Source: Streptomyces sp. Q6 (lineage in GTDB: Bacteria > Actinomycetota > Actinomycetes > Streptomycetales > Streptomycetaceae). Taken from it: a DNA stretch of 64,000 bases. Numbering within the stretch: the stretch's first letter is position 1; every line of letters starts with the position of its first letter. The position numbers and the translations under genes are program-made. The notes beneath the pieces are model-generated. The model ran no database searches. It had not been told where the DNA came from and was given only the letters and a program-made list of their open reading frames with translations. Location of the stretch: contig NZ_CP146022.1 in the NCBI RefSeq assembly GCF_036967205.1, forward strand, positions 5,022,001 through 5,086,000, read 5' to 3'. This document shows, in pieces, positions 50,193-52,671 of this stretch.

Positions 50193-51157
50193 GCGGTCCG
50201 CACCTCCTCGGCGAGCTGAAGCGCCGCGCGCGCCATGTCGGCGGCGGCGGTGCCCACTTCGGGGTCGGTCATCATCAGCGGTACGGCCCGGCAGCGGATC
50301 CCGGCGCTCTCGACGCGCTCCACGACCCCGGCGTCCACGGTGTCGACGAGCCATCCGTCGAGCAGGCCCGAGCCGTAGTGCTCGGCGACGGCGGCGGCGC
50401 TGGACTCGACGCCGACGGCCGCGAGGACCTTGTCGGCCATCCCGCGCACGGGGGCGTCGCCGACGATGGGGGAGAGCCCGACGACGGGCACGCCCGCCTC
50501 GGCGATGGCCTCCCGGATGCCGGGCACGGAGAGGATCGTGCCGACGCTCACCACGGGGTTCGACGGCGGGAAGAGGATGACGTCGGCCGCGGCGATCGCT
50601 TCGAGCACCCCGGGCGCGGGCTTGGCCTGCTCGGCGCCGACCGGCACCACGGCCTGTGCGTCCACGGAGGCCCGCAGCTTCACCCAGTACTCCTGGAAGT
50701 GCACGGCCTTGCGCTCACCGTCGATGTCGACGGCGACGTGCGTCTCCACGCGGTCGTCCGACATGGGGAGGAGCCGCACGCCCGGCTTCCAGCGCTCGCA
50801 CAGCGCCTCGGTCACCGCGCTGAGCGGGAACCCCGCCGCGAGCATCTGCGTACGGACGATGTGGGTCGCGAAGTCCCGGTCGCCGAGCCCGAACCACTCG
50901 GGTCCGACGCCGTACGCCGCGAGCTCCTCCTTCACCGTGAAGGACTCGCCCGTACGACCCCAGCCCTGCTCCTCGTTGATGCCGCCGCCCAGCGTGTACA
51001 TCACCGTGTCGAGGTCGGGACAGACCTTCAGACCGAAGAGGTGGATGTCGTCCCCGGTGTTGCCGATGACCGTGATGTCCGCGTCCGGGGCGGCCAGTTT
51101 GAGACCACGAAGGAACCGGGCACCACCGATGCCGCCTGCCAGAACCACAATGCGCAT
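50189..51157 (-). CDS. fbiA: 2-phospho-L-lactate transferase (dehydro-F420-0 synthesis)
   Basis: 322 residues. The CofD/FbiA family begins [16 protein letters not shown] and has [23 protein letters not shown] (in part), the conserved LGDRDFATH and [14 protein letters not shown]. It transfers a phospho-lactyl or phospho-enolpyruvyl group from the GDP-activated donor to Fo, giving (dehydro-)F420-0. It is translationally coupled to fbiB (GTGA). FbiC and FbiD genes are not in the window. Confidence 0.96.
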
Positions 51158-51200
51158 GCGCCCAGCATCGCAGGCACCTCCGACAGCGCGTCGGCCGGTC

Positions 51201-51713
51201 TCAGACAGTGACCCCGTCGACGGCGTCGACCTCGTCCGCCACCGCGCAGACGGCGCTGTGCATCGGCATCTCGGTCAGGCCGGGGTAGTACACGTGGAGG
51301 CTGACGGCCGGTTCGAGGGAGTCGTTCACGACCTCGTGGACGTAGCCGGGCGCGAACACGCGCTGCGCGCCGGGGGAGAGGGCGAGGCCGCCGCGTTCCG
51401 TACGCTCCGTCAGTTCGCCCTCCAGGAGCGTCAGTACGCCGGAGGAGCGGCCGTGGTCGTGCGGTCCGCTGCCCTGGCCGGGCACCCAGGACAGCAGCCA
51501 CACCTCGTAGCCGGGGCCGGTGCGCAGCCGGTGGTACCAGCGCGAGGTGGCGTCGTACTCGACGAGGTGCTCCCACTGGGAGCGGTCGGCGGCGATGGCG
51601 CGGGCCAGGCCCACGAACTCGGCCACGGTCTCCGGGTGTTCCCGGGCGGGCTGGAGCAGGTGGGGTACTTCGAGGATGTCGCCGGCGATCTGGAGGTCGC
51701 TGTCGCTGTTCAT
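51201..51713 (-). CDS. Cysteine dioxygenase family protein
   Basis: 170 residues, cupin fold. The iron ligands are the two His of GSGPHDHGRSSGVLTLLEG (in part) and the His of YVHEVVND. LRTGPGYEVWLLSW and SLHVYYPGL complete the bacterial CDO pattern. It oxidises L-cysteine to cysteine sulfinate with O2 and Fe(II); a thiol other than Cys (for example mercaptopropionate) is possible in this family. It is preceded by a leaderless poly-Cys ORF (51837-51929), which points to control by cysteine supply. GAGGA lies 11 bases before the ATG. Confidence 0.9.
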   Translation of the reverse strand: MNSDSDLQIAGDILEVPHLLQPAREHPETVAEFVGLARAIAADRSQWEHLVEYDATSRWYHRLRTGPGYEVWLLSWVPGQGSGPHDHGRSSGVLTLLEGELTERTERGGLALSPGAQRVFAPGYVHEVVNDSLEPAVSLHVYYPGLTEMPMHSAVCAVADEVDAVDGVTV

Positions 51714-51836
51714 CGGGTGTGTGGTTCCTCGGCGGAGAGTGCGGTGCGGAAGCCCTGGTCAGGGGCAAAGGGCCGTACAGAAGAGGAGAGCGTGGAGAAA
51801 CGCGGTGAAGCGGTCGGAGCCCGCAGGCTCAACGAC

Positions 51837-51929
51837 TCAACAGCCGGAACAGCAACAGCTGTGGTGCGCGCGGGCAGCGGAGACGGACCCGGCGGTGCGG
51901 GACGTCGACGGTGCCAAGTTCGCGAGCAT
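51837..51929 (-). CDS. Poly-cysteine leader peptide upstream of cysteine dioxygenase
   Basis: A 30-codon ORF from the ATG at 51929: begins MLANLAPSTSRTAGS and ends ARAHHSCCCSGC then TGA. Five of the last... Cys residues near the end: CCC plus a final Cys, four in the last six residues, after two His. It lies 123 bp before the cysteine dioxygenase start. The upstream TTGACA-N17-TGTCCT ends seven bases before the ATG, so the mRNA would be leaderless. Leaderless poly-Cys ORFs acting as cysteine-responsive attenuators are known in mycobacteria. A short hairpin GAGCC-cgca-GGCTC (51817-51830) begins just past the stop. Confidence 0.7.
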   Translation of the reverse strand: MLANLAPSTSRTAGSVSAARAHHSCCCSGC

Positions 51930-51936
51930 GCCCACC

Positions 51937-51965
51937 AGGACACCGGTTCATGCCTGAGCTGTCAA
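51937..51965 (-). promoter_or_regulatory. Promoter of the poly-Cys leader / cysteine dioxygenase transcript
   Basis: On the minus strand a consensus TTGACA (51965-51960), a 17-bp spacer and TGTCCT (51942-51937) are followed by 7 bp and the leader ATG. The -35 is perfect and the -10 keeps the first and last T. Confidence 0.6.
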
Positions 51966-52304
51966 CTCGCTGTCCGGATTGTGGGATATGTTTCACCTCA
52001 TCCGGTATCTCTCTCAGGCGAAAGGTTTGTGCAGGGCCTGAGCCGGACATGTGGCGCATCGACCCGGTGCGCAAACGCCGTTGCGATCCCGTGATCCGAC
52101 TGTGATCCGGTTCGCTTCCGTAGGCGCACAGGAACGCGATCAAACTCCGCGGCGTCCTTCCTTGTAGTGGTTTGCAGCGAGGGAAGTGGGGGCTGGCCCT
52201 CCAGATGGGCCGCTGGCAAGTGTCACGGTTTTTGCCGATTTGAACACTTTCCGCATAGCCTTGGTTCCGCAGAGTGAATAAGGGGCCCAATAGCAGATCT
52301 CGGC
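51966..52304. other. Intergenic region upstream of whiB
   Basis: About 340 bp with no supported gene. Base composition is less GC-rich toward the right (52215-52300). Developmentally regulated whiB promoters with long upstream control regions are known in Streptomyces, so this stretch probably holds regulator sites, but none could be named from sequence alone. Confidence 0.4.
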
Positions 52305-52334
52305 TTGACTGCCCCGGATCGGCACACTTGTAAT
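52305..52334 (+). promoter_or_regulatory. Candidate whiB promoter
   Basis: TTGACT (52305-52310), an 18-bp spacer and TGTAAT (52329-52334) would start a transcript near 52341 with a leader of about 67 nt before the whiB ATG. Confidence 0.45.
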
Positions 52335-52407
52335 TTCACTCGTGTCGTTCAGCCGAAATCGGTAACGGCAACATCACGGGGACGCACGGACAGACGAGGG
52401 GCGCACT

Positions 52408-52671
52408 ATGACCGAGTCGTTTCAGGATCTGCTGGTCGAGGACGCGGAAGAGGAACTCGGCTGGCAGGAGCGCGCGCTGTGCGCCCAGACCGACCCCGAG
52501 TCGTTCTTCCCCGAGAAGGGGGGCTCCACGAGGGAGGCCAAGAAGGTCTGCCTGGCGTGCGAGGTCCGCTCGGAGTGCCTCGAGTACGCGCTGGCCAACG
52601 ACGAGCGCTTCGGCATCTGGGGCGGCCTGTCCGAGCGTGAGCGCCGCCGCCTGAAGAAGGCCGCCGTCTAG
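52408..52671 (+). CDS. whiB: Developmental regulator WhiB
   Basis: 87 residues, essentially the canonical WhiB protein: C25, C48, C51 and C57 bind a 4Fe-4S cluster, FGIWGGLSERERRRLKK is the GxWGG turn and basic DNA-binding tail, and SFFPEKGGSTREAKKVC is exactly the sequence I recall for S. coelicolor WhiB. WhiB works with WhiA to start sporulation septation in aerial hyphae. A GAGGGG stretch precedes the ATG. It is the anchor that identifies the window as Streptomyces. Confidence 0.98.
   Translation: MTESFQDLLVEDAEEELGWQERALCAQTDPESFFPEKGGSTREAKKVCLACEVRSECLEYALANDERFGIWGGLSERERRRLKKAAV

Follow-up and report, generated by a model that had tools for sequence, protein, structure and literature searches.

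A conserved cysteine-rich leader ORF, predicted to be leaderless, ahead of the cysteine dioxygenase gene of Streptomyces: a candidate cysteine attenuator

With a tiny, cysteine-codon-rich, unannotated gene lying ahead of the gene for cysteine dioxygenase (CDO), an enzyme that degrades cysteine, the locus described here raises two questions: whether the short ORF controls CDO, and whether shortage or excess of cysteine would then switch CDO on. The window analyzed is a stretch of 64,000 nucleotides from the genome of Streptomyces sp. Q6 (8.95 Mb, 2 contigs). The ORF, MLANLAPSTSRTAGSVSAARAHHSCCCSGC, is found on the minus strand at 51837..51929 (ATG 51929-51927, TGA 51839-51837); it has 30 sense codons and is predicted to be leaderless. 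The putatively controlled gene lies on the same strand at 51201..51713, with its ATG at 51713. It encodes a cupin of the CDO_I type (PF05995, E=1.2e-19), and its relatives in the PDB include entries named cysteine dioxygenase, with E down to 2.7e-10. The Shine-Dalgarno sequence of CDO, GAGGAA, was read from the sequence at 51725..51730 (minus strand) and then scored. A gene for CofD (PF01933) comes next after CDO, and whiB (PF02467; 52408..52671, plus strand) is the divergent neighbor, as it is in 145 of the 147 CDO-bearing loci L003-L149, duplicates being kept in this count. The locus is the counterpart of S. coelicolor SCO3034/SCO3035: whiB is SCO3034 (PMC4255298), and SCO3035 was therefore taken, by position, as the CDO gene of this locus.

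With E 0.001 as the limit, CDO was matched in 199/199 genomes of the genus sample (a few of the matches being weak, e.g. in G008 and G178), in 101/101 genomes of the family sample, which cover 17/17 genera, and in 147 of the 296 genomes of the class sample, which includes family members. Five CDO matches (L008, L013; genomes G042, G070, G091) appear with a single internal TGA in their open frame. Upstream DNA was collected from 30 genus-sample loci, 80 named Streptomyces loci, 39 new family or class loci and 140 chosen regions, all picked by their CDO match and not by their leader. Removal of duplicates left 227 regions of the window's family, taken as Streptomycetaceae, and 46 more distant regions, 41 from other families and 5 from second-copy genes of the window's family. 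To count as a leader, an ORF had to lie within 480 nt upstream of CDO, start with ATG, span 18-48 codons and carry three or more Cys among its 14 C-terminal residues.

Leaders of this kind were present in 221 of the 227 family regions, compared with 2/227 in antisense and with 2% among dinucleotide-shuffled sequences (five shuffles for each of 60 regions). When TTGAC at the right spacing was required as well, the counts were 220/227 for the family regions, 0/227 for antisense and 0 for the shuffles. The distant set gave leaders in 3/46 sense and 2/46 antisense regions, and leaders with TTGAC in 0/46 and 1/46, respectively. The last 14 residues hold 3-7 Cys across the 221 leaders, at least three being the selection rule. 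Among the six family regions outside the definition, L282 keeps the MLAN start but has fewer Cys and a later stop, L200 (ending in RRAASALCCPRTRRP before its stop codon) has two Cys and falls below the threshold, and L170 and L187 have longer Cys-rich ORFs, with a GTG start in L170; in L129 and L130 no leader of any such form was found upstream of CDO. The leader is confirmed as a real observation, beyond chance. A sequence-only reading of the window had proposed a poly-Cys ORF of leaderless type before CDO, and the conservation of the Cys run that was looked for held across the family. That it is a chance ORF lying over a conserved promoter or 5' UTR is barely credible: the DNA 5' of the -35 hexamer is conserved as well, but an occurrence of 97% stands against a control rate of 1-2%, and the frame is kept despite changes in length.

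The -35 hexamer of the promoter, TTGACA, lies at 51960..51965 and is kept across the family, as is its spacing to the ATG. A -10-like hexamer, TGTCCT, picked out by column conservation, lies at 51937..51942 (both minus strand), 17 nt from the -35 hexamer and 7 nt before the ATG. Upstream of the 221 leaders, TTGACA was found in 220 cases and TTGACT in 1, at a distance of 35, 36 and 37 nt from the ATG in 1, 149 and 71 leaders. The base at position -1 of the leader ATG is C in 95% of them. In the leader alignment the family consensus of the -10-like hexamer is TNTCCT, without the consensus A, and a generic sigma-70 scan calls no promoter here; the promoter is backed by its conservation and spacing, not by a consensus match. 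The pattern TTGACA-N16-18-TNTNCT-N5-9-ATG has one match on the main contig of the same genome, at this locus, and one on contig 2. Since TTGACA stands 36 nt ahead of the ATG, transcription should begin on the leader AUG, and a leaderless mRNA is predicted. Further upstream, at 51966-52035 on the minus strand, a block of the approximate form CAAACCTTTC...ACCGGATGAGGTGAAACA...CCCACA..CCGG is conserved in 141 sequences (the NSD-start set described below). A regulator of CDO or of whiB may bind there.

The 221 leaders range from 26 to 49 codons in length. Among 101 distinct MLAN-type leaders (84-123 nt), 93 showed the TGA motif, in phase with the ATG in 93/93, and intergenic lengths modulo 3 were evenly spread (38/32/31). 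Codon-position diversity over the first 21 codons was flat (0.152, 0.168 and 0.141; 96 sequences), so that selection on the peptide itself is not visible in this part. Between genera, only the initial M, a few positions and the Cys cluster are kept. Conservation of the start, the frame, the Cys codons at the C-terminal end and the stop, with drift in the N-terminal part, fits a cis-acting leader. Its Cys codons are TGT in 871 of 1158 cases (75%), compared with 29 of 269 (11%) in 67 long high-GC3 ORFs of the window; at codons -6, -5 and -4 from the stop, the Cys codon is TGT (167/175), TGC (103/131) and TGT (162/179). The TGT bias could reflect decoding speed instead of pairing. The length steps of 3 seen in the Cys tract could come from repeat slippage. 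The Cys-rich peptide could itself be the product and act in trans, as a small peptide with a thiol, metal or redox function; a Cys-rich C-terminus kept family-wide would agree with this. Such a role is very unlikely given the drift of the N-terminus without codon-position bias, the differences between genera and the strong preference for the otherwise rare TGT.

A leader ORF before an amino-acid-degrading gene is known from tnaC of the tryptophanase operon, where a Rho site follows the leader; tnaC depends on an arrest peptide of conserved sequence, and the amino acid acts as its inducer. Unlike tnaC, the CDO leader conserves little besides its Cys residues. As judged by sequence, no conserved nascent peptide of the tnaC type was found in the 221 leaders, whose N-terminus drifts and whose last residue varies (C 158, R 38, S 10, I 10 and A 3).

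The reading of the ORF as a cysteine attenuator is well supported by this anatomy. Our preferred reading, to which we give a probability of about 0.62, is that the leaderless ORF works in cis as a leader: the speed of ribosomes on it would report the level of charged Cys-tRNA and so set the translation of CDO. RNA polymerase would start on the leader ATG, as the promoter spacing implies, and a 70S ribosome would load at the 5' end. When the Cys codons are free of ribosomes, the RNA segment UGUUGCUGUUC is computed to pair with the CDO start region and would hide it. When Cys-tRNA is scarce, ribosomes would dwell on the Cys codons, the segment would stay single-stranded and CDO would be translated; when Cys is plentiful, ribosomes would pass fast and the helix would re-form. 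Untranslated CDO mRNA would possibly also be cut short by Rho at the C-rich stretch that follows. CDO would be placed in a cysteine-limitation response, beside the cysteine-synthesis genes, and would not be induced by cysteine excess.

The predicted pairing was assessed in the window and across relatives. The candidate anti-RBS segment GCTGTTGCTGTTC, within the Cys-codon tract (51847..51859, minus strand), is complementary to 51711-51699 over 13 bp with one G-U; its partner ATGAACAGCGACAGC (51699..51713, minus strand) is the CDO start codon with codons 2-5. In Streptomyces, this tract is complementary to the CDO start GAACAGCGACAGC. Loose duplex energies between leader tail and RBS gave no discrimination, real sequences beating mono-shuffled ones in 56%, and contiguous-helix scores were used instead. 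CDO starts were reassigned in 48/221 loci, and earlier helix values for the class of other sequences and duplex values for non-Streptomyces sequences were set aside. The NSD-start set consists of CDOs starting ATGAACAGCGAC and is mainly from Streptomyces. In 96% of its 132 distinct pairs, which are not independent because the sequences are related, the tract-RBS helix scored above the mean of a synonymous-recoding null. The mean helix score was 30.4 against 25.9 for a null based on leader-wide codon usage, with a mean probability of 0.16 that the null equals or exceeds the observed score. Partner permutation among Streptomyces-type CDO starts gave 0.882 against 0.884 observed, and hence no covariation; this set comprised 155 sequences, of which 115 had an anchor (51 distinct) and 40 anchorless ones were dropped.

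Outside these sequences the picture differs by lineage. In genus g7 the tract TGT[TC]CCT pairs with the Shine-Dalgarno sequence AGG[GA]ACA and not with the CDO start codons. Sixteen of the 21 g7 sequences fetched, selected by leader type and forming 14 distinct rows, had 91.1% of cells paired, compared with 30-55% when the partners were slid (maximum 54.5%). The covariation score of this set was matched by 2/500 shuffles; doubly changed pairs numbered 3/8, and 81/500 shuffles had as many. An 11-bp match between tract and RBS was found in 4 sequences of genus g3. A g14-like set (10 pairs) and a mixed remainder (29) gave little or no helix signal. The cognate RBS was no better than the RBSs of other classes in 4/5 classes, and its overall rank was about that of chance (0.47 and 0.43; by duplex energy, 0.45 and 0.43). 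RNAalifold, applied to three non-Streptomyces sets of 16, 10 and 9 sequences, returned structures peculiar to each lineage, in which doubly changed pairs numbered 3, 2 and 0. The complementarity is seen in Streptomyces and part of one related genus, and other lineages show little of it. A near-invariant hairpin, TAGGCGC-N-CGCGTCCCACCGCGCGCCG, was observed directly after the leader stop in 10 sequences of the g14-like genus (L183-L194).

The effect of a ribosome on the leader was modeled by treating its footprint as unpaired RNA. On free RNA, the CDO RBS of the NSD-start set (141 transcripts) cost a median of 13.3 kcal/mol to open, and with a ribosome at codon 9 it cost 13.7 kcal/mol. The median was 6.6 kcal/mol with the ribosome at the first C-terminal Cys, 6.6 at the middle Cys and 9.8 at the stop. 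The same five states gave 11.6, 12.0, 6.2, 6.2 and 7.3 kcal/mol in the g7 set (16). The relief between free RNA and the first Cys was small in g3-like (12; 13.2 to 10.3 kcal/mol), g14-like (10; 11.9 to 10.7) and other (42; 10.9 to 9.0) transcripts. Scanning a ribosome along 12 transcripts confined the relief to about the last 10 leader codons. Since a modeled ribosome on the Cys codons frees the CDO RBS in Streptomyces, CDO is predicted there to be ON at low charged Cys-tRNA. Contrary to expectation, CDO is thus most likely switched on when cysteine is short, as far as the model goes.

The sequence-only reading had suggested the reverse for the same leader, with high Cys-tRNA favoring expression. 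Plentiful Cys-tRNA would in that case let ribosomes reach the stop and turn CDO on, and starvation would shut it off. Physiologically, such a response would suit an enzyme that degrades cysteine. The RBS of the window's own transcript opens as readily with a ribosome at the stop codon as with one on the Cys codons (4.9 vs 5.3 kcal/mol); because the stop-codon ribosome also relieves the RBS, polarity is not forced and flow through the leader helps too. Against this, the stop-codon ribosome opens the RBS less across the 141 NSD-start transcripts, as given above.

Published expression data bear on the same point. SCO5772 is presumably the second CDO of S. coelicolor. In that species, 0.15 mM H2O2 raised SCO3035 6.54-fold and SCO5772 8.00-fold, and SCO6094-6102, SCO4164, SCO2910 and metNIQ rose alongside (PMC4991794). 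These co-risers include sulfate-to-cysteine genes, and the joint rise speaks against induction by plentiful cysteine. The H2O2 responses were gone in an hbpS-senS-senR mutant (PMC4991794), so that a transcriptional cause is possible. On feathers, two CdoI genes were near silent at 0-48 h and up 21.65-fold and 6.36-fold at 96 h, when CysD, CysNC, CysC and CysH were also up (PMC12763843); this again stands against the reverse logic. With Streptomyces SCUT-3 grown on feathers, cdo1 was up 50.2-fold and cdo2 8.3-fold (PMC7181669). The cdo1 value can be counted in favor of the reverse logic, but feathers being presumably cysteine-rich, the SCUT-3 data could be read either way. In the data cited here the variable is H2O2 or growth on feathers, not cysteine supply. 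On balance, the reversed polarity is not supported by the modeled ribosome and we regard it as unlikely. Of the earlier proposal, ribosome-mediated attenuation by a conserved poly-Cys ORF of leaderless type probably holds, whereas the polarity assigned within it is less likely than CDO expression under cysteine shortage.

We put forward tentatively, and at somewhat less than even odds, a broader cysteine-limitation response of Streptomyces run through Cys leader ORFs, in which both CDO copies would be on together with cysteine synthesis and the Cys tract would double as an anti-RBS. If true, the role of CDO would lie in making sulfite, salvaging sulfur or detoxifying thiols during oxidative stress, not in cysteine disposal. 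Should cysteine shortage induce CDO, the usual view of it as a disposal enzyme, and of the part it plays in keratin breakdown, would have to be reconsidered for these bacteria.

The stretch between leader and CDO (51725..51836, minus strand) is C-rich and rut-like, with a C/G ratio of 2.6 in its best 78-nt window. Such stretches are C-rich and G-poor across relatives (C 0.46, G 0.25; n=211). Among 183 of them, 61% hold a 78-nt window in which YC steps are regular and the C/G ratio exceeds 2, compared with 3% of 400 random 125-nt stretches of the window and 3% of 60 taken from ahead of long ORFs; lengths were unmatched in this comparison, a longer stretch offers more windows, and the 183 are related to one another. 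A scan of the window found no terminator-like site in 51600-52420, and hence no intrinsic terminator of the trp type. These features point to a possible further step, Rho polarity. Were Rho to act on CDO mRNA that is not translated, a translational switch would become visible at the mRNA level. Rho might even be the main switch, loading on the C-rich stretch unless a ribosome at or near the leader stop, or on CDO, prevents it. The frequency of rut-like windows, the lack of a terminator-like site in the window and the large mRNA-level changes in the published data agree with this. It nevertheless rests on a sequence criterion and leaves the complementarity of the tract unexplained, and we consider it quite improbable as the main switch. 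The stretch lies downstream of the leader stop, so that neither flow through the leader nor stalling clearly masks it. Rho attenuation may act together with the Cys-tract mechanism.

Two mycobacterial short ORFs, Ms5788A and Ms4527A, were reportedly described by Canestrari et al. in 2020 as polycysteine leaderless attenuators whose tract is predicted to pair with the downstream RBS. The CDO leader is like them in its clustered and conserved C-terminal Cys codons (221/227) and the sulfur gene downstream. Its AUG is predicted from promoter spacing to be leaderless, and a comparable pairing of its Cys tract is predicted for the NSD-start set and the 16 g7 sequences, with little or none in other lineages. 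It differs in giving no match to their NCBIfam models and in having a target that degrades cysteine. The window leader and 27 relatives matched no NCBIfam leader family at E 1, and two of them matched none at E 10. The cut-offs of NF042933, NF042934 and NF042936 were not reached by the window leader; the same library does match the classical leaders of its own genome. The ORF is unannotated, and leader-peptide models that recognize classical Cys leaders pass it over. NF042934, a cis_reg_atten model named 'putative leader peptide', describes Cys leader peptides too, as do NF042933 and NF042936; the window leader is distinguished from it by the lack of an RRHVDL core and by a longer Cys run. Some other genera of the family have an NF042934-like ...RRAASALCC... 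in their CDO leader. By analogy, the CDO leader resembles the mycobacterial polycysteine attenuators in its likely way of working, and it is no scored member of the NCBIfam leader families searched. A Pfam search of 28 leaders gave zf-CDGSH at E 0.21 in 1/28, which was taken as chance. Rfam at E 5 gave two weak matches on 51100-52500, far below the gathering score.

The amino-acid attenuators of S. lividans TK24 also include short leaderless leader ORFs, some without an intrinsic terminator (PMC8079986). In contrast to the present case, the table of 8 leaders in that paper has none for cysteine or CDO (PMC8079986). A limited literature search found no description of a CDO leader in Streptomyces. 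With a cysteine-degrading enzyme as its unexpected target, the CDO leader extends the small set of cysteine attenuators by a family-wide poly-Cys candidate that the searched models do not match. Within the S. lividans set, the metL peptide, the leader of metNIQ with the sequence MSTTSDRTPATEATTTPGARCMCRRMCAF, is Cys-rich (PMC8079986, Table 4), and metNIQ rises with SCO3035 under H2O2. The metNIQ leader may be a cysteine and not a methionine leader.

Leaders were also found at other CDO genes. The second CDO_I gene of the same genome (L303) has a leader ending in RRVHMDLVRYAGCMCRPSC before its stop, at C1:6342551-6342619 on the minus strand; with an assumed GTG start written as M, it scores 38.8 bits against the NF042934 cut-off of 27. 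Queried with RRHVDLxRVASAxC, which we take to represent the classical Cys leader, this genome gave 10 matches at E below 0.02 and 14 at E 10. Genes for a sulfatase, an FMN reductase and a sulfite reductase are among those downstream of such matches, and two of six scanned downstream pieces gave no Pfam match. Upstream of 58 distant CDO-family genes, 12 classical leaders, 5 five-codon MRCCC leaders and 3 doubtful ones were found (antisense, 2/58). Twelve of the 58 were added later, five of those since genus g53 already showed MRCCC, and the counts are therefore not random rates.

Among the eight g53 genomes fetched, MRCCC followed by a stop codon lies under a conserved promoter in L230, L231, L235, L309 and L312. 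At the same promoter in L310 and L311 stands a classical leader of 25 residues, MQASALVLVMRRHIDLKRTCTAICR, and L308 shows neither form. The MRCCC ORF and the classical leader alike stop 61-63 nt short of the CDO homology. From this arrangement it seems that a poly-Cys form can arise from a classical leader through internal deletion.
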